Below are positions 986 to 32,916 of a stretch of DNA of 34,608 nt, one piece after another. Source of the stretch: Candidatus Cloacimonadota bacterium (lineage in GTDB: Bacteria; Cloacimonadota; Cloacimonadia; Cloacimonadales; JAMOQM01); the NCBI GenBank assembly GCA_027064005.1, contig JAMOQM010000112.1, positions 1-34,608 of the forward strand. The letters run 5' to 3'. A model generated the notes under the pieces. It was not told the origin of the DNA, ran no database searches, and saw nothing but the letters and a program-made list of their open reading frames with translations. The position numbers and the translations under genes were made by a program. Each line of letters begins with the position of its first letter. Within the stretch, counting starts at the first letter, position 1.

Positions 986-1596
986 ATGAAAATGATTTTA
1001 AAGAAATAGAAATGACACCTGATGAAAAATTCTCAGCGATAGCAAATTTGAAAAAAAATTTAGAAGAAGAATTTATTCAATTAGGACAATTATTGTCTGA
1101 AATTAAACGCGTAAAAACATTTCGATTAAAAGGCTACAAATCTTTTAAAGAATTTGTTGAAGAAGAATATAACATGGCCGGTTCATTTGCATCTAAAATT
1201 ATTTCTATTTATGATTTATTTATCAAAGAATTGGATGTTGACGAAATGACGGTTAAATCTATCGGAGTTGATAAATTAAGCATGATTAAAGGTTTTGTAA
1301 AAGATAGTTCTTTTGAAGAATCTGAAAAATGGATTGATCGTGCTGAAACTATGCAAACAGTTGATCTAAGAGAATATATAAAAGATGTGAGAGAAAAACA
1401 AAAAGAAAAATCCTTAAAAGATGTATTCATCGAACAATTTAAGGAAAGGATGGTGGTATTTTTCAATTGTTCCCAAAAAGAGCTGAACTTTAAATTAGCC
1501 TTATATTTCCAGGATATGAACCTAGAAGAGGTAAAACAAATAATTAAAGAAAAACAGCAAAGATTTGAAGAAACTGATAATTGGGATTCCCAATAA
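982..1596 (+). CDS. Conserved hypothetical protein, possibly helix-turn-helix / DNA-binding-like
   Basis: A 204-residue acidic, lysine- and glutamate-rich protein, predicted almost wholly helical and cytoplasmic, with no signal peptide or membrane segment. Residues about 15-85 contain a Glu-rich helix, then GYKSFKEFVEEEYNM and FASKIISIYDLF. This arrangement resembles a segment of phage or plasmid proteins in which a short 'level of activity, then GYxSFxEWxEE, then kinase-like helix' stretch is thought to bind DNA. I cannot name a family with confidence. The C-terminal half (about 120-200) is probably coiled-coil. The start overlaps the panB stop by 4 nt, and the gene ends 13 nt before the porX ATG, so the three are probably cotranscribed. 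Function unknown. Confidence 0.7.
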   Translation: MNENDFKEIEMTPDEKFSAIANLKKNLEEEFIQLGQLLSEIKRVKTFRLKGYKSFKEFVEEEYNMAGSFASKIISIYDLFIKELDVDEMTVKSIGVDKLSMIKGFVKDSSFEESEKWIDRAETMQTVDLREYIKDVREKQKEKSLKDVFIEQFKERMVVFFNCSQKELNFKLALYFQDMNLEEVKQIIKEKQQRFEETDNWDSQ

Positions 1597-1609
1597 AAAA
1601 GGAGAACAA

Positions 1610-3175
1610 ATGCACAAAATGAAAATATTATGGGTTGATGATGAAATTCAATATCTCATCCCATTCAAAATGTTCCTGGAAGAAAAAGGTTACGATGTAA
1701 CTACTGTTTCAAACGGTTCCGACGCTCTTGAATTACTTATTAAAAAGAAAATTGATTTAATTCTTCTTGATGAAACAATGCCCGGATTGGATGGTTTAAC
1801 TACTTTGACAGAAATTAAGAAAATAAATGCCTCTATCCCGGTAATTATGGTAACCAAAAATGAAGAAGAGGGTTTGATGAATGAGGCTATTGCCAGCCAA
1901 ATTTCAGATTATTTAATCAAACCAATTAATCCAAATCAAATTATCCTTGCTATAAAAAAGATTTTCCAAGCTGATGAGATTAGACAAAATAAAGTTGGAG
2001 AAGATTATAGCAAATTCTCAGCAAAATTAAATCAAAAACTGTTCAATACACCTGATTGGAATGATTGGTCTAAAATCTACACTGATATTTGTCGATGGGA
2101 TAGTGTAATTGATGAAATAAAAGAACCGGCTTTGACGCATATGCATTTTTTGGAAAAGAAAAATTGTAACACCGAATTTGGAAATTTCATTGAAGAAAAT
2201 TACCTCGATTGGTTAGAATCCGATGATCGTCCACTGCTTTCATTTGATATTGTAGCAGAAAAAGTACTTCCTTATATTAATTCAAAAGGTCCCGTATATT
2301 TCATTGTTTTGGATTGCATGAGATTAGATCAATATATGGCAATTGAACCTTATCTTAAAGAATTATTTGATGTAGATTTAGACCTCTATTATTCAATATT
2401 ACCAACCGCAACTCCGTATTCGAGAAATTCCATTTTCAGCGGAATGTTACCGGTTGATATTGAAAGAAGTTTCCCTGAATATTGGACAAATTATTCAGAT
2501 TTAGAAAATTCTAGAAATCGTAACGAACACCAATTATTAGACGCTTTGATTAGTGATTTAGGTTACGATTTGAATCCTTCCAGTAAATACATCAAAATAT
2601 TTAATATGGAAGAAGGGAAATTTGTTTTAAGAAAAATCGATAGTTGGAAAAAAGAAAAATTGGTCGTGCTAGTGATTAATTTCCTCGATTTATTGGCTCA
2701 TCATCGTTCAAAAGATCAAATCCTACAAGAGGCAATCCCGGACGAATCAGCTTTAAGAGCTTTCACAAAACATTGGTTTATGCATTCATCATTATACGAA
2801 TCATTAAAACTAATTAGCAAACAAAAAGATGCAACCGTCATCATCAGCACTGATCACGGAAGTATTAGGGTTAATCGAGCAACTCAGGTTGTCGGTGATC
2901 GTGAAACAACTTCTACTGTAAGATACAAAATCGGAAAAAATTTAAGCGTGAATGAACGTCATGCAATGTTTTTAAAGGAACCGGAAAGAATGGGATTACC
3001 AACCGGAAACATTGTTGAAAATTATGTTTTTGCCAAAGATGATTATTATTTTGTATATCCAAATTCTTATCATCAATATCAAAATCAATATAATGGTACT
3101 TTCCAGCATGGTGGTATTTCTTTACAAGAGATGTTACTTCCAATAGCTGTTTGTAAATCCAAGAAAAATGACTAA
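1610..3175 (+). CDS. porX: PorX-like response regulator with PglZ (alkaline-phosphatase superfamily) domain
   Basis: A two-domain cytoplasmic regulator of 521 residues. Residues about 4-122 are a receiver domain with the acidic pair Asp10-Asp11, phospho-acceptor Asp54 (LLDETMPG), a Thr in IMVTKN and the conserved Lys in YLIKP. After a helical linker, residues about 225-515 form a PglZ domain with metal-site motifs VLDCMRLD (Asp235), PTATPYSRN (Thr266/Thr268), STDHGS (Asp415-His416) and FQHGG (His500). PorX in Porphyromonas partners the PorY kinase and controls type IX secretion; its PglZ domain is a zinc phosphodiesterase. I chose ATG 1610, preceded by AAAAAAGGAG, over an in-frame TTG at 1565 that lies inside the previous gene. 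It overlaps tsaE by 8 nt, a pairing common in FCB genomes. No PorY-like kinase is present here. Confidence 0.88.
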   Translation: MHKMKILWVDDEIQYLIPFKMFLEEKGYDVTTVSNGSDALELLIKKKIDLILLDETMPGLDGLTTLTEIKKINASIPVIMVTKNEEEGLMNEAIASQISDYLIKPINPNQIILAIKKIFQADEIRQNKVGEDYSKFSAKLNQKLFNTPDWNDWSKIYTDICRWDSVIDEIKEPALTHMHFLEKKNCNTEFGNFIEENYLDWLESDDRPLLSFDIVAEKVLPYINSKGPVYFIVLDCMRLDQYMAIEPYLKELFDVDLDLYYSILPTATPYSRNSIFSGMLPVDIERSFPEYWTNYSDLENSRNRNEHQLLDALISDLGYDLNPSSKYIKIFNMEEGKFVLRKIDSWKKEKLVVLVINFLDLLAHHRSKDQILQEAIPDESALRAFTKHWFMHSSLYESLKLISKQKDATVIISTDHGSIRVNRATQVVGDRETTSTVRYKIGKNLSVNERHAMFLKEPERMGLPTGNIVENYVFAKDDYYFVYPNSYHQYQNQYNGTFQHGGISLQEMLLPIAVCKSKKND

Positions 3176-6523: not shown

Positions 6524-6830
6524 ATTAATTATTTAGAAGATATTTTTTGATAATAATCAGAATAATTTCTCAACATTTTATCATTAAAAAATAGTCTTAA
6601 TTACAGGAAAAAACTCATTTTATTCAAATTAATGAATGAATTAAAAACGATGCCGGGGAAAAAAGATATTCTTTACAAACAAGAAATATTTTGCTTTATG
6701 AAATTCAAAGTAGAATTCTTCTTTTAATGCCAAATTCTGAACAAATATTTCTATATCTCACACTAAAAATCGAAGTATCTGATACAATATTTAATAAATA
6801 ATCTTTATCAGTTTTGAAAGGAAAAATTGA
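6524..6830. other. Non-coding region between the divergent gcvPA and ddl genes
   Basis: About 300 nt of very AT-rich sequence with no gene I can support. The longest plausible reading (ATG near 6632, 32 codons) has no ribosome binding site. I looked for glycine and other riboswitch cores, tRNA-like folds and terminators and found none. It probably holds regulatory DNA for both flanking operons. Confidence 0.5.
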
Positions 6831-6886: not shown

Positions 6887-7813
6887 ATGAATAAAAATGA
6901 AAATATCGTTGTTCTAAATGGTGGAAATTCTCCCGAAAGAGAAATTTCTTTAATCAGTGGGAAAGAAGTATTTAAAGCATTAAAAAATGTTTATAAAAAC
7001 ACTCAACGTATTGATCCTTCCGATTTCAAATCATACAGTGAACTAATAATATCGCTAAAAAAAAATAACCCGATAGTCGTAAATATGCTTCACGGTGGAT
7101 TCGGTGAAAATGGTCATCTTCAAAGTCTTTTAGAAATGGAAAAAATCCCTTTCACAGGCTCCGGAGCAAAAGCCAGTATGATTGCAATGGACAAATTTAT
7201 CAGCGGATTATTGGTTAATTCCATTGGAATACCTGTGCCGGAGAAAAAACTATTTTCTAAACTTTCGGAAATTCCTTTAAAAATAATTGAAGATTTTGAC
7301 GGAAAAATCGTAATCAAACCCATAGATGCCGGTTCATCTGTTGGAATTCATATTATTGATGATAAAGATAAAATAATTACTGCTGCTGAAGATGCTTTTA
7401 AATATTCTCACAATATCATCATCGAAAAATTCATCGAAGGTCGAGAATTGACGGTAACTGTTTTAGATGGAAAAGCCAAACCGGTGGTAGAAATTAAACC
7501 AAAAAACGGTTGGTATGATTTCAAGAATAAATATTCAAAAGGTAATACCGAATACATTTCTCCGGCAAAATTGTCTGAAAATGAAAAAGCTACAATTCAA
7601 TCTTATGCTGAGAGAATTTTCTCCCTATTTGGTTGTTTTGCCTATAGTAGAATTGATTTTAGATATGATGGAGAAAATTTCTATTTTTTAGAAGTAAACA
7701 CACTCCCGGGAATGACACCCTTGAGTCTCACGCCAATGTCTGCTAAAGAAAGCGGAATGGAATTTATTGATTTGCTTAACCTATTAATAAACTTAGCTAC
7801 CAAAAGGAGTTAA
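6887..7813 (+). CDS. ddl: D-alanine--D-alanine ligase
   Basis: An ATP-grasp ligase that joins two D-alanines for peptidoglycan precursors in the cytoplasm. It has 308 residues from the chosen ATG, the standard size. The N-terminal signature NGGNSPEREISLISG (11-25) includes the substrate-binding Glu and Ser. MLHGGFGENGHLQ, the P-loop-like PIDAGSSVGI, the Mg-binding LEVNTLPGMT and SLTPMSAKESG follow in family order. An in-frame TTG 60 nt upstream is rejected because ATG 6887 has AAAGAGGAAAA before it and starts just ahead of the conserved domain. It leads a run of six further plus-strand genes spaced 1-9 nt apart. That makes ddl the first gene of an operon otherwise devoted to envelope and second-messenger functions. 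Confidence 0.95.
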   Translation: MNKNENIVVLNGGNSPEREISLISGKEVFKALKNVYKNTQRIDPSDFKSYSELIISLKKNNPIVVNMLHGGFGENGHLQSLLEMEKIPFTGSGAKASMIAMDKFISGLLVNSIGIPVPEKKLFSKLSEIPLKIIEDFDGKIVIKPIDAGSSVGIHIIDDKDKIITAAEDAFKYSHNIIIEKFIEGRELTVTVLDGKAKPVVEIKPKNGWYDFKNKYSKGNTEYISPAKLSENEKATIQSYAERIFSLFGCFAYSRIDFRYDGENFYFLEVNTLPGMTPLSLTPMSAKESGMEFIDLLNLLINLATKRS

Positions 7814-7815
7814 AA

Positions 7816-8883
7816 ATGAAAAAGATTCTCATACTTTTTTTACTAATTATTACATCATTTCTTTTCGCAAATGATTTACAGCTTTCGTTAACCGGAATTG
7901 GAAATTTTAACGAATTTTATGCATCATATTTGGATCCTGATAATGTTTCAAATCAACCTATTCTATTCACCGGTAATATTCAAAACACAACTTCTGAAAG
8001 CTTCGAATTTTATCTTACTTTGCAAATTCTTTGGAATAATCAACATCTTTTAGATGAATCGGACGGAAAAATTAATTCCAGAATTCCGATTAATGCAAAC
8101 CAGACTTGGACATTTACAAATCAGGATATAATTAATAACATTGCATCCGGATATTTTAAAGCTCATCTTGATGTTGACAATATTCAAAATAAAATTTCCG
8201 AATTTAAAGATGTTTTAATGGAAACCGGAAAATTCCCGGATGGAGAATATATCCTTAGATTTAAAGCTTATGATTTGGACAATAATCAGATTTCCAACAC
8301 GGAAGAATATTCGTTTACAATTATCAATTATTCTTCCATAACGTTAATTCAACCCGGATTACAATTAGGAAATGGAGTCTTAGAAATTCCGGATAATGAA
8401 CCTTTTTTTATTTGGAACTCCAACGCCTCAACTTATACATTCAAATTATATCATCTCCAATCTGATAATAATTCCGCAGATCAATTGGATTCAACTTCAC
8501 CTCTTTATGAAACTACAGTTCAAACAAACACTTTTAGATATCCACCCTCAGCACCTGCTTTAGAAAATAATCAATTATATGCTTGGAAAGTTGAATTTGA
8601 AAATCAAACAGGTACCGGTTCAACCAGCACTATTTCGAGTAATTATTTTGTTTTTAAAATTCATTCAGGAACATCTCAAACCGGAGAATATAACCAAATT
8701 ATTACTTTTTTACAAAATTTAGGAATTAATTCATCACAAATACAAAATTTATTCCAAAACGGATACGCTCCCACCGGAATAATTACTTTTAATGGAAAAA
8801 TAATAACTCAAGATGAATGGAACGAAATTCTGGATAAAATAATTTCGGGTGAATTAACCATCAAATCAGTAAATGTAAATTAG
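7816..8883 (+). CDS. Secreted hypothetical protein with beta-rich repeats
   Basis: A 355-residue exported protein I do not recognise. It begins with a clear Sec signal peptide (KK, then a Leu/Ile-rich core to about residue 17, ending SFLFA). The body is Asn/Thr/Ser-rich and looks all-beta. Residues about 20-165 are one domain holding alternating hydrophobic strands and YILRFKAYD; residues about 175-280 are a second domain with a fibronectin-like feel (FIWNSNASTYTFKLYHL, YAWKVEFEN). The tail (about 290-355) contains a short helical segment, FNGKIITQDEWNEIL. There is no lipobox cysteine and no sorting domain, so it is probably periplasmic. It starts 2 nt after ddl and is 9 nt from the FecR-like gene; it may be an accessory or ligand-binding part of that module. 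Confidence 0.75.
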   Translation: MKKILILFLLIITSFLFANDLQLSLTGIGNFNEFYASYLDPDNVSNQPILFTGNIQNTTSESFEFYLTLQILWNNQHLLDESDGKINSRIPINANQTWTFTNQDIINNIASGYFKAHLDVDNIQNKISEFKDVLMETGKFPDGEYILRFKAYDLDNNQISNTEEYSFTIINYSSITLIQPGLQLGNGVLEIPDNEPFFIWNSNASTYTFKLYHLQSDNNSADQLDSTSPLYETTVQTNTFRYPPSAPALENNQLYAWKVEFENQTGTGSTSTISSNYFVFKIHSGTSQTGEYNQIITFLQNLGINSSQIQNLFQNGYAPTGIITFNGKIITQDEWNEILDKIISGELTIKSVNVN

Positions 8884-8892
8884 GAGCACAAA

Positions 8893-9561
8893 ATGAAAAA
8901 AATAATTATTACAATAGTCAGTGTTATGAGTATCTTAATTTTAAATTCTCTCGAACCTTCCGCAATCACAATAACTACAAAAGGAGATGTTACTTTATCT
9001 CACGCTAAAACTACCAGCAAATTAAAAAAAGCTGATTTATTATATAATGAAGACGAATTAACTTCTTCTGATAAATCTTTTGCCGCATTTAAGTTTATCG
9101 ACGGAAGCGGAATTATCAAATTGTTCCCAAATAGTAATATCGTAATCAATACCAAAAAAGAATCAGGAAAATTATCTAAAACAACTTTTATCTCAAAAGG
9201 TTCATTATTATCCAAAGTAAATAAACATTTTGGAATTTTTGATGTTGAAACACCAACAACTGTCGCTTCCATAAAAGGAACACAATTTTATCTTAAATAT
9301 CTTGATTCCGGTGAAACAATTCTTTATACAATTGAAGGCTCAATTCTTTTCTCAAATAAAAATAACGGCAAAAATGCTTACGTTCACAAGGGAGAAGTTG
9401 GAAGAAGTGACGGGGCAGGTAATATCGTTGTGAAAAAATATTCTAGTCGAGATTTACCAAATGGTGTCAATGACCAACTTTTTAAAGAAACCAAAACTTT
9501 GAATATTCAAATAAGAAACGCAACCGGCGACACCAAACAAATCAGCATTGAATTAGAATAG
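8893..9561 (+). CDS. FecR-domain periplasmic protein
   Basis: A 222-residue protein with an N-terminal signal peptide (about 1-22) and a FecR domain over about 30-190. Typical elements are GDVTLSHA, LxxxDEL, FAAFKFIDGSGIIKLFPNS, the strand block ISKGSLLSKV, then VETPTTVASIKGTQFYLKY and TxLYTIEGSILFSN. It lacks the cytoplasmic anti-sigma segment and inner-membrane helix of classical TonB-linked FecR, and no sigma factor gene is nearby. It therefore belongs with the stand-alone FecR proteins often found beside CHASE2 cyclases. In this operon it sits between a secreted protein and an outer-membrane barrel and just upstream of a CHASE2 cyclase. A role in relaying an envelope signal is a reasonable inference, not shown by the sequence. 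Confidence 0.8.
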   Translation: MKKIIITIVSVMSILILNSLEPSAITITTKGDVTLSHAKTTSKLKKADLLYNEDELTSSDKSFAAFKFIDGSGIIKLFPNSNIVINTKKESGKLSKTTFISKGSLLSKVNKHFGIFDVETPTTVASIKGTQFYLKYLDSGETILYTIEGSILFSNKNNGKNAYVHKGEVGRSDGAGNIVVKKYSSRDLPNGVNDQLFKETKTLNIQIRNATGDTKQISIELE

Positions 9562-9569
9562 GAGAAATC

Positions 9570-11888
9570 ATGAAAAAATTTACCGTACTATTGATGATAA
9601 TTCTAAGTTCATCATTCTTGTTTGGATTAAATATTCAACAAACAGTCCCGAAATTAATTGAGACGGAATCCAAAGCAAAATTTATTATTGATATTACAGA
9701 ATTTTCTGAAATTTCTTCGATTGATATGTTTTATAAATTCTCTCAAGATAATATTTTTAAAAAAGAGACGGTTGATCTTAATGGTAATACCGGTAGATAT
9801 GGAATTGAATTAACCATCCCGAAAGCTGTTACAGAGCTCGAATATTACTACAAAATTTATACTACAAATGGAACCATTTATTCTTACCCTGAATTCAATC
9901 CTGAAATGCAACCTTTTAGGCTTCAAATACTTCCTAATCATACTAATTTTCAGAGCATTTTTACTCTTTTAAATCCGAGCTCATTCAAATTTAATTCTAA
10001 AGATGAGATTATGTTTGCCATTTCATATTTCCCTGTTTCCGACAGAGTTAATATAAACAAATCTTACATGATGTTAGATGGCAAAAAAATAAAAGATGCA
10101 AAAGTTACAAAAAATGTTGCGGTAAAAAATTTTCGACAACTCCCAAATGGAAATCATACAATTGAAATGGTGATTAAATTAAACAATAATAAAACAATTA
10201 CATCTCCGAAATGGAAGGTTAATGTTGGTAAAAATATTCATCGAGCAATAAAATACAATGGAAATATCTCGTATTTTTCTTATTACAATAAAAAAAATTA
10301 TGATAATAATGAAGACTCTAAAAATACTCAAAACGATCTAACATTAAATTTTAACTCAACTTATTTAAAGAATAGATTAAACGGCAAAATCTATGTTTCG
10401 TCTTTGGAGTCCGGGCAAAAACAAGCAATAAACCGATTTTCATTACTTTATGATTCTCCTGTTTTAGAAATTGATATAGGCGATAATACACCTCATTTTT
10501 CTCAATTAGGAATTACTAATAATGTTAGAGGAATTACATCAAATCTGCATTTCCATTATTTCAGATTATTATCTACCTACGGTTATTTAAAGCGAAATAT
10601 TGCTTGCAAACAAATTGGTGACAAGTCTTATTCTTCGGGAAGTTTTGATAGAAAAATTATAGCCGGAAGAATAGAAATAGGAGCTAAAAATGGCTTTGAA
10701 TTAGGGCTTTCAGTTACTAAAAATAAAGACATTATTTCATCTTTAGATGAGAATCAATTTACCACAAACGATTCATTGAAGTCTTTAATTATCACTCCAA
10801 AAGACAATATTCTGATTGGTTCCGATTTCAATTATTCTTTGTTGGAAAATAGATTACATTTTTATGGAGAGATATCGGTAAGTATGTATAATAACAATAT
10901 TTACGAGGGAGCAATCTCAAAGGATGATCTTGAAGATTATGGAATTGATTTACCATTTGATCCTCAAGACTATGAGCAATTGTTTGTTATAAATAAAAAT
11001 GTAGCTCCTTATAAATTAGGACTTTCAATGGCAGCGATAACTTCAGGAATTAGATATTATGATAGAATAAATAACTTTAATTTTACCTTTGGACAATACG
11101 GAAGTGCTTATAATTCCCTATCTTCAAATCTTCCTCAGGATAAAAGAATTTTATCATTCTCCGACCAACTTAATCTTCAAAACAAATTTTTCTTATTATT
11201 AGGAGGTTCATTTTCACAAAACAATCTTTCAGATAATAAAGTAACCACGAATAAAGGGAAAAATATCTATTCTAATATTTTGATTAAAACCGGTAACGCC
11301 CAAACTCTTCATTTCAGAGGTCAATATTCTCTTAATGAAAACGATGACAAATCAATGAAATCAAGCTATAATTTGATTGAAAGCGGATACGATTTTTCCA
11401 TTCTCAATCAATCAGATTATCCGACAAATATGTCTGTTTCAATTTCCAGAGCTTATAATAACAATGAAACTTTAGACAATTCTGAAAACACAAAGACTAA
11501 TATCAATGTATTCTCAATCAGTAAATTGGCATATTTCCCTGTTGATATTAAACTCGGTTTCACTTTGAATAATGTTAAAGATGTTACCGATTTTGCAGAA
11601 ACAACCTTAGATGATATTAATAACAAATATTGGAATAATAATTATCTTTTGGGAGCAAAATTTCATTTTTTAAGAGACAAAGTTGTCCCGTATATTAATT
11701 ACCAATACACCAATGTTTCGGAAAAAGATTCACAAAATAAACACAATATCAGCATCGGAACCTCATATATCCCATTCGAAAAAACAAGCATTTCAACCAA
11801 ATATTCATTTTATTCTTACAACACTGATGCCGGAGAAAATGATTATAAAAACAATGTTTTTTCATTGAATATTACTCAAAGATTCTAA
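9570..11888 (+). CDS. Predicted outer-membrane beta-barrel protein
   Basis: A 772-residue exported protein with a signal peptide (about 1-19). Residues about 20-215 look like two Ig-like all-beta domains ending in WKVNVGKN. From about 225 onward the sequence alternates polar and hydrophobic/aromatic residues in many 8-12-residue strands separated by Asn/Asp/Ser-rich loops. It ends with Phe (LNITQRF), the usual last residue of an outer-membrane barrel recognised by the BAM machinery. I cannot assign it to a named porin or TonB-receptor family; there is no TonB box or plug domain. It lies 8 nt downstream of the FecR-like gene and 1 nt upstream of the CHASE2 cyclase, so it is a candidate surface sensor or export pore for this operon. 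Confidence 0.75.
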   Translation: MKKFTVLLMIILSSSFLFGLNIQQTVPKLIETESKAKFIIDITEFSEISSIDMFYKFSQDNIFKKETVDLNGNTGRYGIELTIPKAVTELEYYYKIYTTNGTIYSYPEFNPEMQPFRLQILPNHTNFQSIFTLLNPSSFKFNSKDEIMFAISYFPVSDRVNINKSYMMLDGKKIKDAKVTKNVAVKNFRQLPNGNHTIEMVIKLNNNKTITSPKWKVNVGKNIHRAIKYNGNISYFSYYNKKNYDNNEDSKNTQNDLTLNFNSTYLKNRLNGKIYVSSLESGQKQAINRFSLLYDSPVLEIDIGDNTPHFSQLGITNNVRGITSNLHFHYFRLLSTYGYLKRNIACKQIGDKSYSSGSFDRKIIAGRIEIGAKNGFELGLSVTKNKDIISSLDENQFTTNDSLKSLIITPKDNILIGSDFNYSLLENRLHFYGEISVSMYNNNIYEGAISKDDLEDYGIDLPFDPQDYEQLFVINKNVAPYKLGLSMAAITSGIRYYDRINNFNFTFGQYGSAYNSLSSNLPQDKRILSFSDQLNLQNKFFLLLGGSFSQNNLSDNKVTTNKGKNIYSNILIKTGNAQTLHFRGQYSLNENDDKSMKSSYNLIESGYDFSILNQSDYPTNMSVSISRAYNNNETLDNSENTKTNINVFSISKLAYFPVDIKLGFTLNNVKDVTDFAETTLDDINNKYWNNNYLLGAKFHFLRDKVVPYINYQYTNVSEKDSQNKHNISIGTSYIPFEKTSISTKYSFYSYNTDAGENDYKNNVFSLNITQRF

Positions 11889-11889
11889 A

Positions 11890-13743
11890 ATGAAATATCT
11901 AAGTAAGTCTTTTGTCCCGCTGGTCTTAATTATAATTTCGAGCATTTTTTTCTCAACAAATCTATGGAAAAATCTGGAATTAAAGGCTTACGATATTTTA
12001 TTTTCATTGCGTAACAATAGAGAAATTTCCAATGATGTGGTTATTGTTTCTATTGATGATGAAACTTTTGCGTCATTAGATACGAGGTGGCCATTTAAAA
12101 GACAGTTGTACGCAAAATTAATTGATAATTTAGAAAATGCCGGAGCAAAAACAATTGTTTTTGATATTGAATTTACCGAAAAATCAGATACTTTTAATGA
12201 TTCATTATTTTCAAATGAATTAAATAAATATAACAATATCATTTTAGCAGGCAAAATTTATAAATATCAGGATGGAAATTATACTAAATTACAATTGGTT
12301 CAGCCTTTGGAAAGGTTTAGGAAAACTAATGATTGGGGAATTGTAAATATTATCCCTGACATAGATCAATTTGTCAGAAACTACTCTATTTATGATTTTG
12401 TCGGGCATGATATTTATTATTCTCTGGGATTATCTGCTTACGGAAATTATCTGTTTGGAAATAATTGGCAATCTAAAATCAAATCAAACAATCGATTTTT
12501 CAGTTTGGGGAATTTGAATTTTGAGAAAAAAAACGCCCATAATTTCCTCATTAATTTTGCAGGTCCATCCGGGTCTATTAAGAGTTATCCTTTTTCTCAA
12601 GTTATTGATGATTCGACATTTACCCTGCCAGTTCTTGACATAAATAGTTTTTATGATTTGAAAAACGCAAATGCTTTCAAAAATAAAATTGTTTTTATCG
12701 GAGCGACTTCCGATGAACTTCACGACGTTTTTCCAACGCCATTTTTAAGCGGTAAAAAATTAATGGCCGGAGTAGAAATTCATGCCAATTTTGTTGATTC
12801 AATTTTGATGAATAAATTTCTTCATAAACTTAATTTACTCCGGATTTTAATCCTAATCTTAATCACAAATATAGTTTTCTATTTAATCAATTCTAAGATA
12901 AAGCCATCGCGTTCTATTTTTATTTCACTTCTTTTTATTATTGGATATTGGTTAGTTGTCTATTATTTCTTTAGCCATAAGTTACTTATTTTACCTATTT
13001 TAATCATACCGGGATACGTAATAATTTCTTATCTCTACGGTTTTATTTTTCAACATTCAAAATTAAGAAAAGAACGTAAGTTTATAAAATTTGCTTTTGA
13101 GAGATATTTATCCGCCGATGTTGTAGAAGAACTTTTGGAAGATCCGAAAAAACTAAAATATGGCGGTCAAGAAAAAGAGATATCGATTTTATTTACCGAT
13201 ATTAGGTCATTTACAACCTTCACCGAATCTCATAATCTAAATGAAACAATTCCGCAATTACGAGAATATTTTACCGAAATGGTAAAAGCAATCAAAGATA
13301 ATCGTGGAATGATTGATAAATTTATTGGTGATGCAATAATGGCTATTTTCGGTGATCCTATTTATGATGAAAATCACGCATTAAATGCTTGTAAAGCTGC
13401 CTTAGCAATGCAAGTTAACTTAAAAAAATTACAAGAAAAATGGCAAAAAAAAGGAGTGGATATTTTCGTGAACGGAATTGGAATTAATTCCGGAAATTGT
13501 ATTGTTGGAAATTTGGGTTCAGAGCAGATCTTTGATTATACAGCTATTGGGGATACAGTTAATCTTGCATCGAGGCTTGAATCTGCTAATAAAAAATATC
13601 CGACTGAATCAAAAATAATAATTAGCGAATATACTTTTGAACTTGCAAAAGAAAAAATTATTGCCAAATATTTAGATGAAACAAAAGTTAAAGGAAAAGA
13701 AAAGTCTGTAAAAATTTATGAACTAATTGGAATTAAAGAATAG
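11890..13743 (+). CDS. CHASE2-domain class III adenylate/guanylate cyclase
   Basis: A 617-residue inner-membrane receptor cyclase. One N-terminal helix (about 8-23) leads to a periplasmic CHASE2 domain (about 30-305; VVIVSIDDETF, RWPFKRQLYAKLIDNL, KNKIVFIGATS, FPTPF and GVEIHANFVDSIL are typical). Three transmembrane helices follow (about 310-395), then a short linker (FERYLSADVVEELL) and the catalytic domain (about 430-600). Metal ligands are Asp437 (FTDIRSFT) and Asp481 (KFIGDAIMAIFGDP). Lys477 is the purine-selecting lysine and Asn558/Arg562 stabilise the transition state. The second selectivity position is Thr551 (DYTAIGD), the class IIIb pattern. All residues for a homodimeric active site are present. 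cAMP is the likely product, but specificity cannot be proved from sequence. The ATG follows the barrel gene by 1 nt. Confidence 0.92.
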   Translation: MKYLSKSFVPLVLIIISSIFFSTNLWKNLELKAYDILFSLRNNREISNDVVIVSIDDETFASLDTRWPFKRQLYAKLIDNLENAGAKTIVFDIEFTEKSDTFNDSLFSNELNKYNNIILAGKIYKYQDGNYTKLQLVQPLERFRKTNDWGIVNIIPDIDQFVRNYSIYDFVGHDIYYSLGLSAYGNYLFGNNWQSKIKSNNRFFSLGNLNFEKKNAHNFLINFAGPSGSIKSYPFSQVIDDSTFTLPVLDINSFYDLKNANAFKNKIVFIGATSDELHDVFPTPFLSGKKLMAGVEIHANFVDSILMNKFLHKLNLLRILILILITNIVFYLINSKIKPSRSIFISLLFIIGYWLVVYYFFSHKLLILPILIIPGYVIISYLYGFIFQHSKLRKERKFIKFAFERYLSADVVEELLEDPKKLKYGGQEKEISILFTDIRSFTTFTESHNLNETIPQLREYFTEMVKAIKDNRGMIDKFIGDAIMAIFGDPIYDENHALNACKAALAMQVNLKKLQEKWQKKGVDIFVNGIGINSGNCIVGNLGSEQIFDYTAIGDTVNLASRLESANKKYPTESKIIISEYTFELAKEKIIAKYLDETKVKGKEKSVKIYELIGIKE

Positions 13744-13751
13744 GAGTTTAA

Positions 13752-14600
13752 ATGCATATCTTTTATAATTTCAACAAAAAGATACTTGATAAAATCAAAG
13801 TTGACCACCAACTTTTTGAATACACAGAATCTGAAAATCCTAATTTAACAAAATACGATATTTTTCTGAAATTAAAGGATAACAATTCCTATCAAATTAT
13901 TTATCAGAAAAATAAAATTATCAATTCTAATGATAAAGACATTAACAATTTCCTCAAAATAGTTATCGAACTCCAAAACGCATTATTTGAGAGGGATTTA
14001 AATCAAAAAAAATATCTCTTTGAGATCAAAAACAAACTAATTATTAATAAAGAGAATACCAGATTACAAAAGAAATTAATTTATGATAGCAAATTTGATT
14101 GTTATAACTTTGGATATTTTAAATCTCAATGCCAAAAAGAAATTGAGAAATATAGAAGATATTTAGAACCATTTACAATTCTGCTTCTTGATATTGATAA
14201 TTTTAAGAAAATTAATGATGAATATGGGCACGATGTTGGAGACATTGCGTTAGAAAAATTTATAGAAGCTATCAAAAAAAATATCAGAACGGTTGATATG
14301 GTTTTTAGATTTGGTGGTGATGAATTTGTCGTGCTTCTCCATAAAGCAATGATGGTCGGCTCATTTATCGTCTCAAAAAGAATTCAAGATTCTATCAACA
14401 AAATCTCATTTATGGCAAACAATGTCTTGGTTAAAAATAAAATAAAAACATCTATCGGTATTGTAACTGTCTCTGAAGAAGTCGAAGAAAATATTTTAGA
14501 TGTTGATAGCTTATTCAAAAAAGCAGATAGAGCTCTTTATAATGCTAAAGATTCAGGGAAAAACAGAATTATCCATATTGAACATTGCAAGAGGTGCTAA
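13752..14600 (+). CDS. GGDEF-domain diguanylate cyclase
   Basis: A cytoplasmic protein of 282 residues with no membrane helix or signal peptide. The first 115 residues are an unrecognised segment rich in Lys, Asn and Asp, ending in a likely coiled coil. The GGDEF domain spans about 118-278: ILLLDIDNFKKINDEYGHDVGD carries the metal-binding Asp and the substrate Asn/Asp, and the signature loop is GGDEF at 188-192. An RxxD inhibitory site (Arg179-Asp182) lies exactly five residues before GGDEF, so product feedback by c-di-GMP is likely. ADRALYNAKDSGKNRI closes the domain. It starts 8 nt after the CHASE2 cyclase with a TAGGAG ribosome site, placing synthesis of two second messengers in one operon. 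No EAL or HD-GYP partner is present. Confidence 0.93.
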   Translation: MHIFYNFNKKILDKIKVDHQLFEYTESENPNLTKYDIFLKLKDNNSYQIIYQKNKIINSNDKDINNFLKIVIELQNALFERDLNQKKYLFEIKNKLIINKENTRLQKKLIYDSKFDCYNFGYFKSQCQKEIEKYRRYLEPFTILLLDIDNFKKINDEYGHDVGDIALEKFIEAIKKNIRTVDMVFRFGGDEFVVLLHKAMMVGSFIVSKRIQDSINKISFMANNVLVKNKIKTSIGIVTVSEEVEENILDVDSLFKKADRALYNAKDSGKNRIIHIEHCKRC

Positions 14601-14603
14601 AAA

Positions 14604-15125
14604 ATGTTTTCCAGAATACTTATTCTTTTCAGTATAATTTTTCTCCCTTTGATGATTTTCGGACTGCCAAAATTCACAATAAAAAGTAATAGCTTTGAAA
14701 ATAACGGCGATATTCCTTCAAAGTATTCTTATCACAATTCCAATATCTCTCCGGAATTGCACTGGTCAAATTTTCCCCAAAAAACAAAATCTTTTGCCAT
14801 CATTGTTGATGATCCTGATGCTCCGGTTAAAACATGGGTTCATTGGGTAATTTATAATATACCTAAAACAACAACATCTCTCAAAGAACATTTAACTCAT
14901 GAAAAAATATTTCCATCCGGCATAACTCAAGGAAAATCTGATTTTAAAAATTTTGGTTATGATGGTCCTGCTCCACCTTATGGAACTCACCATTATCATT
15001 TTAAAATTTATGCTTTAGATGCTGAATTAAATTTGCCGCCGGGACTTACTAAAAGTCAGTTAGAAGAAAAAATCAAACATCATATTTTAGCGAAAAGTGA
15101 AATTATCGGACTATTCGCAAAGTAA
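14604..15125 (+). CDS. YbhB/YbcL-family (PEBP, Raf-kinase-inhibitor-like) exported protein
   Basis: A 173-residue member of the phosphatidylethanolamine-binding protein family. It has an N-terminal hydrophobic signal (about 4-20), so it is probably periplasmic. The conserved anion-binding pocket is complete: Asp69-Asp70-Pro-Asp72 (DDPDAP), TWVHWVIYNIP with His80, GxNDFxxxGYDGPxPP-like residues 110-125, and GTHHYHFKIYALD (127-139). Bacterial members have no settled function; ligand binding or inhibition of proteases/kinases has been proposed for the family. It starts 3 nt after the GGDEF gene and uses a GAGGTG ribosome site inside that gene's end. It is the last gene of the ddl-led run; no clear terminator follows, only AT-rich sequence before the next promoter. 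Confidence 0.9.
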   Translation: MFSRILILFSIIFLPLMIFGLPKFTIKSNSFENNGDIPSKYSYHNSNISPELHWSNFPQKTKSFAIIVDDPDAPVKTWVHWVIYNIPKTTTSLKEHLTHEKIFPSGITQGKSDFKNFGYDGPAPPYGTHHYHFKIYALDAELNLPPGLTKSQLEEKIKHHILAKSEIIGLFAK

Positions 15126-30009: not shown

Positions 30010-30174
30010 GTAGAATTAACCTTTTAACAATTTTTTTAGGACTGCACCGACAGAAAATTATCTTTTCATAGCAATCGATAAATTCATAAAAGATTAAGAA
30101 TAAGATATTTAAACTCGGAATAACAATAATTAAAACGACTTTTTATTTTTTTATCAAATTTATTGAAAAAACAC

Positions 30175-30203
30175 TTGACATTCAAATATGTATATTTTAA
30201 AAA
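30175..30203 (+). promoter_or_regulatory. Possible promoter of the T9SS-sorted surface protein gene
   Basis: TTGACA (30175-30180), a 17-nt spacer and TAAAAA (30198-30203) lie 57 nt before the ATG at 30232. The hexamer fits the other promoters here; the -10 is only a moderate match. The 165 nt between this and the opposing promoter hold nothing else I recognise. Confidence 0.4.
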
Positions 30204-30231
30204 AATAAATTATAAAAAAACTGGAGGAAAA

Positions 30232-32916
30232 ATGAAAAAACTGCTTACTATTGTAGCACTAATTTTATCTACTTTCTTATTTGGAGAATTAGATAATTTT
30301 ACAATCGTCAATCCGGACAATTCAAACGTTAAAATTTCTAACAACTGCTTTGTTTCTCAAAACAACACCTTCTTTTTTACCTATCGACAAAAAAATACGA
30401 ATGATGAATCTATAATACTTTCAAAATCAACTAATCTCGGTGAAAACTATACATACAAAGAAATTTATACTGCGAACGAATTAAGCGAACCTAACATCAC
30501 AATTTTCAATAATAAAATCATTGTTTTCTTTGCAGATAAAAACACGGGACAAATGATTAGAGCAATTTCCGATAATGACGGAGAAGATTTTACCCTAAAT
30601 GAAAATACTGATTCGGAAATTTATAACAGCGGTACTGAAATTGTCGCAAACAATAAGCTTAATGTTTTATATCAAAGAGGAAGAACTTTACCTGCTTCAA
30701 GATATTCATTATTTTTTGACAATTCTATTTTTGAAAATGGCTCACCTGTTCCCTATACCGGATATCATTCAATCAACGGAAAATTTCACTCCAATACAAA
30801 TATCGAGATAATTAATACCAGTGGAACTTCAAATCCTGATGCACCCGGCTGGCCATTATTTTTAGGATATACCAGTACAAGCGGAACAATAAATTATCAA
30901 GGCGATAATCCTCCAATATCAGAAATTTTTCAAGGCGGATATTCTGAAAACGTTGCTCAACTTCAATTTAACAAACAAGATTTATTATTGAATTCCATTC
31001 ACCCTTTTGGAACCGTACCAAATGAAAACTTCGTAATTTATATGAGAATGACGGGGAATTCCTGTGTTAGTTATATTGGTCAAATTCAATCTGTTGGTAT
31101 AGACACGTTAGTTATCTATGATTCTTACCCACCTTATGGACCGGTTGGTGATTCTATAGGTGTAAATTATGTTCCGGTAAAAGATACTGTTTGGACTCAG
31201 GTCGATATTCCCTTTCAAAACAACCAATCAATTTATGTACCTGATGTTCTTTATTTACAGGGAAGTGTAAGCGGAAAACATACTATTTATTCTTACAAAT
31301 CAACTTATCTTACCGGGGATATCACATACACGGGGACCAATGTTGGCGAGGCTCCTGATGATGTAGAAAATCCAAATGAAAATGATTTCTTCGGTTTGAT
31401 TTCCAACGATAAAATATATATTTCATACGGGTATTTTTCTCCGGAATTAGGTACACGCCAGAAAGTAAATTGCAACGGAATAAATCTTTACGGATCTTAT
31501 GCCGCAATTAAAGATAATGATGATCCTGTGGGAAATAGCGTCTTTACATTTGAATATCAACATCCTCATCCGTCCACAGAGCCTTGTGTTTACAATAACG
31601 AAAGCTATGATAAAATAGATTTGCATATGCACAAATTCCCTCAAGATGCAGACAATCCTTGGCCGGCAGATCTTGATTATCCTTATTATAACCCACTTTG
31701 GCCGGAATCGTCAGAGCACATAACTTTTGAACGTGGTATAATTAATCTTTTCGGAAGCGTAGCTCAAATAAATGCAGGTAATATTCACTGTTCAGGAAGC
31801 GATTCTTTTAATCATTCAACTCCGGCGGTTTGGGATTTTGAAAATCATCTTTATGGTACAACTCATCCTTCTACCGGATACGCAAAAAATTATCATTTAG
31901 ATTCGAGATTAAAATATTCCGCTCCTCCAAATTTCTGCCAATTAGAAAATGTTCCTGCCGATGTTGACCCGCAATTTATATTATCTTCTTCAGAAGATGG
32001 TAATAATTTCACGGAAAATTATTCTAATAATGATAATTCCGTAGTAAAATCTGTAAAATTTGATATTAAAAATAATGAAATAGCTATCGTAAGATCAACT
32101 GACTCGGGTACAACTATTTTATACTCTAATAATTCAGGTGAAGATTTTTCTACTGAACAACTTAGTATCCATATTTTAAAAATTATAAATGTCAAAATCA
32201 CAAATAGGGTTTATATTTTAGCAAAGCCATATTATGGAATAGGTCATACTCTTTATTGCTTCAATCCGGAAACTCAAAATGTTGAAACAATTTATGAAAA
32301 CACTGAAGAAAATTATCCTCAAAATATTGCTTCCGATATAAACCAAAATCTGTTTTTAGCAAAAACAACAAACGAAAATATTGTTTTTTATGAATTACAA
32401 GGAAACGAATTGGTAAATATTTATTCAAAATCTCTTTCCGAATTACCTTCTCCAATCCAAAGTGATGACAAATTGATTTTCACATTCGATAACGATAATC
32501 AGATGTATTTAATCTACAATCTTGATAATGAAAATTCCTATCTTCCTTTCGGCAATGTTTATATTTCCAAAGGTGTTTTGGAAAATGTTGGGAACCAACA
32601 CGATGAAGTCAATCCTGTAAAACCGACAATTACAAATTATCCAAATCCATTTGTCCTGTCCGGAAATAAACGCTCGGCAAATACAACTTTCAAATTCACT
32701 TTAAACAAAAATTCCAAGGTGGAAATTAACGTTTATAACTTAAAAGGTCAAAAAGTGGCTGAAGTTATAAATAAAAATATGACTAAAGGTGAACATAAAA
32801 TTAATTGGAACGCCAGAAATTCATCTAATAAAATCCTTTCTTCAGGAATTTATTTTTATGAATACAGAATTGATAATAAAGTTAATTCCGTAAAAAAATG
32901 CATCATCATTAAATAA
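30232..32916 (+). CDS. Large secreted protein with Asp-box repeats and T9SS type A C-terminal sorting domain
   Basis: A predicted exported surface protein of 894 residues. A Sec signal peptide covers about 1-18. Residues 30-200 and 580-790 contain Asp-box (BNR-like) turns of the form SxDxGxxF: 66-73, 113-120, 587-593, 622-626 and 632-639. This suggests a sialidase-like beta-propeller scaffold. Between them (about 220-575) is a different all-beta region with VLYLQGSVSGKHTIYSYK and LTGDITYTG then GLISNDKIYISYG; this pattern resembles DUF4900-type beta-helix domains. The last 95 residues (from TNYPNPF at 801) form a type A sorting domain with VYNLKGQKVAEV, GEHKINW and SSGIYFYEY, ending in basic CIIIK. 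I chose ATG 30232, with CTGGAGG before it, over an upstream TTG. No sialidase active site could be identified. Confidence 0.82.
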   Translation: MKKLLTIVALILSTFLFGELDNFTIVNPDNSNVKISNNCFVSQNNTFFFTYRQKNTNDESIILSKSTNLGENYTYKEIYTANELSEPNITIFNNKIIVFFADKNTGQMIRAISDNDGEDFTLNENTDSEIYNSGTEIVANNKLNVLYQRGRTLPASRYSLFFDNSIFENGSPVPYTGYHSINGKFHSNTNIEIINTSGTSNPDAPGWPLFLGYTSTSGTINYQGDNPPISEIFQGGYSENVAQLQFNKQDLLLNSIHPFGTVPNENFVIYMRMTGNSCVSYIGQIQSVGIDTLVIYDSYPPYGPVGDSIGVNYVPVKDTVWTQVDIPFQNNQSIYVPDVLYLQGSVSGKHTIYSYKSTYLTGDITYTGTNVGEAPDDVENPNENDFFGLISNDKIYISYGYFSPELGTRQKVNCNGINLYGSYAAIKDNDDPVGNSVFTFEYQHPHPSTEPCVYNNESYDKIDLHMHKFPQDADNPWPADLDYPYYNPLWPESSEHITFERGIINLFGSVAQINAGNIHCSGSDSFNHSTPAVWDFENHLYGTTHPSTGYAKNYHLDSRLKYSAPPNFCQLENVPADVDPQFILSSSEDGNNFTENYSNNDNSVVKSVKFDIKNNEIAIVRSTDSGTTILYSNNSGEDFSTEQLSIHILKIINVKITNRVYILAKPYYGIGHTLYCFNPETQNVETIYENTEENYPQNIASDINQNLFLAKTTNENIVFYELQGNELVNIYSKSLSELPSPIQSDDKLIFTFDNDNQMYLIYNLDNENSYLPFGNVYISKGVLENVGNQHDEVNPVKPTITNYPNPFVLSGNKRSANTTFKFTLNKNSKVEINVYNLKGQKVAEVINKNMTKGEHKINWNARNSSNKILSSGIYFYEYRIDNKVNSVKKCIIIK

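Follow-up and report, generated by a model that had tools for sequence, protein, structure and literature searches.

Although the CHASE2 sensor domain is widespread, little is known of what it responds to. Here we describe a locus for a CHASE2 class III cyclase in a 34,608-nucleotide stretch of Cloacimonadota DNA (assembly GCA_027064005.1, contig JAMOQM010000112.1, positions 1 to 34,608; hereafter the window), where the cyclase gene follows genes for a D-alanine–D-alanine ligase (ddl), a secreted protein that we call sec, a FecR-domain protein and a putative outer-membrane barrel. The closest named genomes to the window are Cloacimonadota. In the FecA–FecR–FecI system, an outer-membrane barrel and a periplasmic FecR domain act as a signalling pair. 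The locus shares both parts with this ferric citrate system (FecIRA), for which the pair has been noted (PMC5498481), but it has no anti-sigma part and no match to a TonB-receptor domain, and its predicted output is a cyclase, not a sigma factor.

An earlier note on this DNA called the pairing of FecR with CHASE2 known, and it is indeed published: in Burkholderia, a FecR–LysM gene lies directly before the gene for a CHASE2 histidine kinase (PMC5192318), and in Campylobacterota, genes for CHASE2 adenylate cyclases are grouped with one for a FecR-domain outer-membrane protein (PMC9239204). The Burkholderia operon resembles the locus in its FecR gene immediately before a CHASE2 receptor, but its output is a histidine kinase with a response regulator and no barrel gene is described. 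The Campylobacterota cluster resembles it in joining a CHASE2 adenylate cyclase to a FecR-domain outer-membrane protein, but contains a phosphodiesterase and a TPR protein that are absent here, and no ddl is reported for it. The idea of an outer-membrane barrel feeding CHASE2 cyclases also has a published precedent in NsrA, an outer-membrane receptor that is needed, with CyaK or CyaD1/D2, for cyclic AMP (cAMP) signalling in Sinorhizobium meliloti (PMC7529298, PMC13001267). In both systems a FecR domain and an outer-membrane barrel are encoded, in that order, ahead of a CHASE2 class III cyclase. Whereas NsrA unites FecR, TPRs and barrel in one protein, FecR and barrel are here separate genes without TPRs, and the locus adds a secreted Ig/FnIII-like protein and, at its head, ddl. 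The only paper found to mention Cloacimonadota together with CHASE2 appears to be about a trait-prediction program.

We consider it somewhat probable (about 60%) that the five genes constitute a trans-envelope cAMP signalling module of the NsrA–CyaK kind, in split form. What is new is the sec partner, the split FecR/barrel arrangement and the recurrent ddl link. On the S. meliloti plasmid pSymB, the gene before cyaK encodes a protein of 1190 residues with FecR at 66–160, TPRs and the C-terminus KVRF, which from its position and architecture we take to be NsrA; the same arrangement occurs on two further rhizobial plasmids. Profiles of FecR and of the cyclase find their rhizobial counterparts; that of the barrel finds no match there.

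Five genes form a conserved unit across families

We searched 59 genomes of the order for cyclase and barrel and compared the surrounding DNA, up to 20 kb per neighbourhood. The order ddl–sec–fecR–barrel–cyclase was found across many families. As an internal control, every open reading frame (ORF) of the window was searched by blastp against the neighbourhoods of 54 relatives, all of them from other families, the window being the sole genome of its own family in the comparison. The five unit genes were present in 37–45 of the 54 and the genes immediately outside in 0–1 (the flanking counts are limited by the shortness of some loci, though most extend several kb past the module). Upstream, GcvPA and GcvPB were each present in one neighbourhood; downstream, the GGDEF and PEBP genes and both lysine-aminomutase genes were present in none. 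The five genes are a conserved unit, and GGDEF and PEBP are local additions beside it, seen in this window only. A seven-gene system, as the earlier note had it, is thus not borne out: its conserved neighbourhood holds for the first five genes, which keep one another's company among relatives, but not for the last two. The same note described sec as a secreted beta-rich protein and missed its role as a conserved partner; sec was found in 49 of the 59 genomes, as was fecR.

Barrel and cyclase orthologues were both present in 45 genomes (window included) and lay no more than 500 nt apart in 40; a 41st adjacent pair came from G001, where the real gap is 7 nt. Two genomes in which contig ends prevent a judgement (G038 and G051) were set aside, so that barrel and cyclase adjoin in 41 of 43 genomes, the remaining two (G002 and G010) having them on different contigs. 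Across the phylum, the barrel was found in 101 of 125 genomes, a few matches being to the Ig domain only, and the cyclase was matched in 97 at E ≤ 1e-50, a threshold that also admits longer CHASE2 paralogues. Two metagenome-assembled genomes labelled Spirochaetes carry sec–fecR–barrel–cyclase, scoring 134–143 (fecR), 259–264 (barrel) and 60–84 bits (sec) against profiles built without them. Antisense to the barrel–cyclase region of G003 (L102) runs an open frame of 1010 residues, probably a chance shadow frame, which masked both genes in simple ORF calling.

FecR decays in one clade that lost the cyclase

The FecR protein has no membrane segment beyond a signal-peptide-like N-terminus, in agreement with the earlier description of it as lacking the anti-sigma part. 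An extracytoplasmic function (ECF) anti-sigma system was rejected, as this FecR has neither a cytoplasmic anti-sigma part nor a transmembrane segment.

Four modules in genus g18 have no cyclase: those of G048, G054 and G068, genomes in which no cyclase orthologue was found, and the second copy in G072. None of the four retains the FecR motif TPTxVASVKGT. This motif or a close variant is kept in the 17 other FecR proteins read alongside them and in the other 39 members of alignment A2; among those that keep it are the G071 and G072 copies that have a cyclase. When columns conserved in other modules were tallied, the four cyclase-less modules kept 14–19 of 29 residues in FecR, 39–42 of 45 in the barrel and 14–15 of 15 in sec; relatives with a cyclase keep at least 27 of 29–31 conserved FecR residues. 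The four form one clade (support 100), so the decay is a single event. This pattern is suggestive of FecR being the part that is constrained by, and would face, the cyclase.

Cloacimonadota FecR domains of the same family also occur inside ORFs of about 700 residues (L135–L141; in G022, G036, G040, G049, G053, G025 and G027, the last cut by a contig end). Their C-terminal part ends in Phe and is barrel-like by length, composition and end only; it had no barrel family match. Because fusions of FecR with a barrel-like part occur in two lineages, the separate FecR and barrel proteins of the window may be expected to work together. The ORF in G036 lies beside TatD and ThiF-family genes.

Predicted structures of the barrel and sec

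The barrel model (mean pLDDT 86) shows two Ig-like domains followed, after residue 228, by about 26 strands. This bears out the earlier note's barrel with Ig-like N-terminal domains, as does a C-terminal Phe in 41 of 41 relatives. Solved Foldseek neighbours were MtrB, ushers, LptD, porins and TonB receptors, at TM-scores of 0.2–0.4, the best being MtrB (6r2q_B, E 4.5e-11, TM-score 0.41). Family scans gave no Pfam or curated family match and no TonB-dependent receptor plug domain, and a sequence search of solved structures gave, for the N-terminus, only an Ig-domain match to peptidylarginine deiminase (and, for FecR, a weak FecR match). On the strength of the model, the 772-residue protein is predicted to be a large outer-membrane barrel of no assigned family. 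MtrB, the 26-strand barrel of the Mtr complex, is its best fold neighbour and similar in strand number, but the barrel here has no family match to it, and the lack of Cys in sec and FecR leaves no cytochrome partner; we therefore rejected an MtrB-type porin–cytochrome conduit as a fold likeness only.

In the model of sec (mean pLDDT 89), a helical tail follows two Ig/FnIII-like domains, and the first fold neighbours were tandem FnIII proteins, RbmA among them, at low TM-scores. Compared with DUF928, three of 40 members matched, the best at E 0.017, which falls short of the cut-off.

The cyclase and its possible output

Besides the CHASE2 sensor, the cyclase has the two metal-binding Asp, the Lys/Asp for adenine and the Asn/Arg of class III adenylate cyclases; residues D437, K477, D481, D549, N558 and R562 are conserved in 34–35 of 35 relatives. 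It has an N-terminal transmembrane segment and a transmembrane block at 315–383, and is predicted from its residues to be an adenylate cyclase. A second family of longer CHASE2 cyclases (about 720 residues; L123–L128) occurs in many relatives and does not adjoin the barrel; one (L127) starts 12 nt after the gene for a protein that matches FecR and TPR weakly.

The genome of the window holds one other class III cyclase (of TPR type), three other GGDEF proteins and three cyclic nucleotide-binding proteins. No CRP-like protein with a DNA-binding domain was seen among the last three, of which the histidine kinase alone was scanned with Pfam. In that kinase (L129:745-1863; G000:C10), a cyclic nucleotide-binding domain with the intact phosphate-binding motif GEMAL-x5-RSA is fused to the kinase, making it a candidate cAMP target. 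A further protein, of 576 residues (L131:151-1881; G000:C59), resembles a glycosyltransferase in its N-terminal part and ends in a cyclic nucleotide-binding-like domain.

The GGDEF protein of the window has no transmembrane segment, and its RxxD site is intact, as noted before (RTVD, five residues before GGDEF). A coupled output of cAMP and cyclic di-GMP (c-di-GMP), also proposed for the locus, is not supported, since GGDEF and PEBP do not accompany the module in the 54 neighbourhoods.

Rearranged and partial sets, and the link to ddl

The set also occurs in other arrangements. In family f9 (G008 and G020), ddl comes after the cyclase, not at the head, and in G005, G006 and G014 it does not adjoin the unit. 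Family f13 has two blocks, sec–fecR–barrel on one contig and ddl–cyclase on another; G022 and G034 have ddl–cyclase only, and G007 has ddl–sec–fecR–cyclase without the barrel. A sec–fecR–barrel–cyclase unit without ddl is found in G071 and G072, and its barrel groups with those of G084 and G085, consistent with movement of this unit as a whole, by transfer or by duplication and loss.

In most relatives ddl adjoins the unit or the cyclase. Its link to the unit is real and recurrent and extends in f13 to the cyclase alone, a connection that the earlier note missed. A literature search found no paper joining CHASE2 with D-alanine ligase. One extension, which we regard as distinctly unlikely, is that the module reads the state of the cell wall or envelope, the ddl-tied CHASE2 cyclase receiving through FecR the state of the barrel and its secreted partner. 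On that reading, the pairing of ddl with the cyclase where the barrel block is absent (f13, G022 and G034) would make ddl more than a bystander.

Gene order and transcription signals in the window

The seven genes of the window (Table 1) and their gaps are as first described, ORFs and families having been re-derived from the window.

Table 1 Genes of the run in the window, with positions and supporting matches.
Feature	Position	Strand	Support and remarks
ddl, D-alanine–D-alanine ligase	6887..7813	+	PF07478, 166 bits; NF002378 above cut-off; head of the conserved five-gene unit
sec, secreted protein of 355 aa, two Ig/FnIII-like domains and helical C-terminal part	7816..8883	+	No family
FecR-domain protein, periplasmic, without anti-sigma or transmembrane part	8893..9561	+	FecR PF04773, 34 bits (cut-off 24)
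Predicted outer-membrane beta-barrel, 772 aa, two N-terminal Ig-like domains	9570..11888	+	Model, fold search, C-terminal Phe
CHASE2 class III cyclase, predicted adenylate cyclase	11890..13743	+	PF05226, 181 bits; PF00211, 88 bits
GGDEF protein, GGDEF and RxxD intact	13752..14600	+	PF00990, 128 bits; local addition outside the conserved unit
PEBP (YbhB/YbcL) protein, exported	14604..15125	+	PF01161, 144 bits; local addition

Successive ORFs are separated by 2, 9, 8, 1, 8 and 3 nt. The ddl start is an ATG preceded by AGAGG, with an alternative TTG upstream at 6827, and the sec, FecR, barrel and PEBP proteins each have a signal-peptide-like N-terminal segment. A consensus scan found no terminator-like site on the + strand within the run, and overall its promoter and terminator sites were no more numerous than in shuffled sequence. 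The GGDEF and PEBP genes, which follow at gaps of 8 and 3 nt, are probably in one transcript with the unit. Elsewhere in the window, 1565-3175 encodes a response regulator with a PglZ domain, a domain combination that also characterizes PorX, a regulator of type IX secretion, and 30163-32916 encodes a 917-residue protein with weak matches to type IX secretion C-terminal domains (two of three models below their curated cut-offs).

A proposed route and its alternatives

In the proposed module, the outer-membrane barrel would perceive a surface or envelope signal, with sec as its likely partner; periplasmic FecR would pass the signal to the CHASE2 domain of the inner-membrane cyclase, and the class III adenylate cyclase would then make cAMP. 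We infer the direction from barrel through FecR to CHASE2, the physical contact, the signal and the production of cAMP; what is observed is the gene content, the adjacency conserved across families, the domain make-up, the intact catalytic residues, the FecR decay in the cyclase-less clade and the joining of FecR to barrel-like C-termini in other proteins.

Several observations weigh against this proposal. The barrel and the C-terminal region of the NsrA-like protein show no similarity in sequence, and the sec–fecR–barrel and ddl–cyclase blocks lie apart in f13. Some genomes have the cyclase without the barrel (G007, G022 and G034) and others the barrel without the cyclase (G048, G054 and G068); because each occurs without the other, the two are not strictly dependent on each other. 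The FecR decay rests on one event (n = 1) and was counted only once two sequences had drawn attention to the degraded motif. In G004, moreover, the motif is intact though no cyclase orthologue was found in its 500-contig draft.

These partial sets bear on the strongest alternative, which we think rather unlikely: that sec, FecR and barrel build a separate outer-membrane structure, for export, assembly or envelope tethering, and that the cyclase monitors it or the cell wall, the barrel being no receptor. Such a structure would fit the persistence of sec–fecR–barrel with well-conserved barrel and sec where the cyclase is missing (G048, G054, G068 and the second copy in G072), the ddl–cyclase pairs that stand without that block (f13, G022 and G034), and the ushers and LptD among the barrel's fold neighbours. 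However, on loss of the cyclase it is FecR that decays, not barrel or sec, and in the rhizobial precedent a FecR–barrel protein acts upstream of CHASE2 cyclases.

We regard as very unlikely a shared transcript or stable neighbourhood with ddl in which the genes do not work together. That ddl is a housekeeping gene and that the set is incomplete in some genomes would agree with this, but the set recurs rearranged (ddl last in f9, two blocks in f13, four genes without ddl in G071 and the first copy in G072) and its flanks do not. The full seven-gene version, in which the relay would yield cAMP and c-di-GMP together, is highly improbable: although GGDEF and PEBP trail the cyclase closely, probably in its transcript, and the GGDEF protein has both sites intact, neither gene is near the module in any of the 54 relatives and the genome has three other GGDEF proteins.

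Implications

If the five genes are a split module of the NsrA–CyaK kind, the NsrA principle would reach beyond plant symbionts to Cloacimonadota, a little-studied phylum with few cultivated members. A phylum-wide module with barrel, FecR and cyclase in separate genes would make each step from outer membrane to cAMP separately testable, and the decay of FecR points to it as the piece that meets the cyclase. The ddl link also leads one to ask why the gene for a cell-wall ligase should accompany those of a cAMP receptor; if the module does read envelope state, peptidoglycan supply and outer-membrane status would converge in one cAMP signal.

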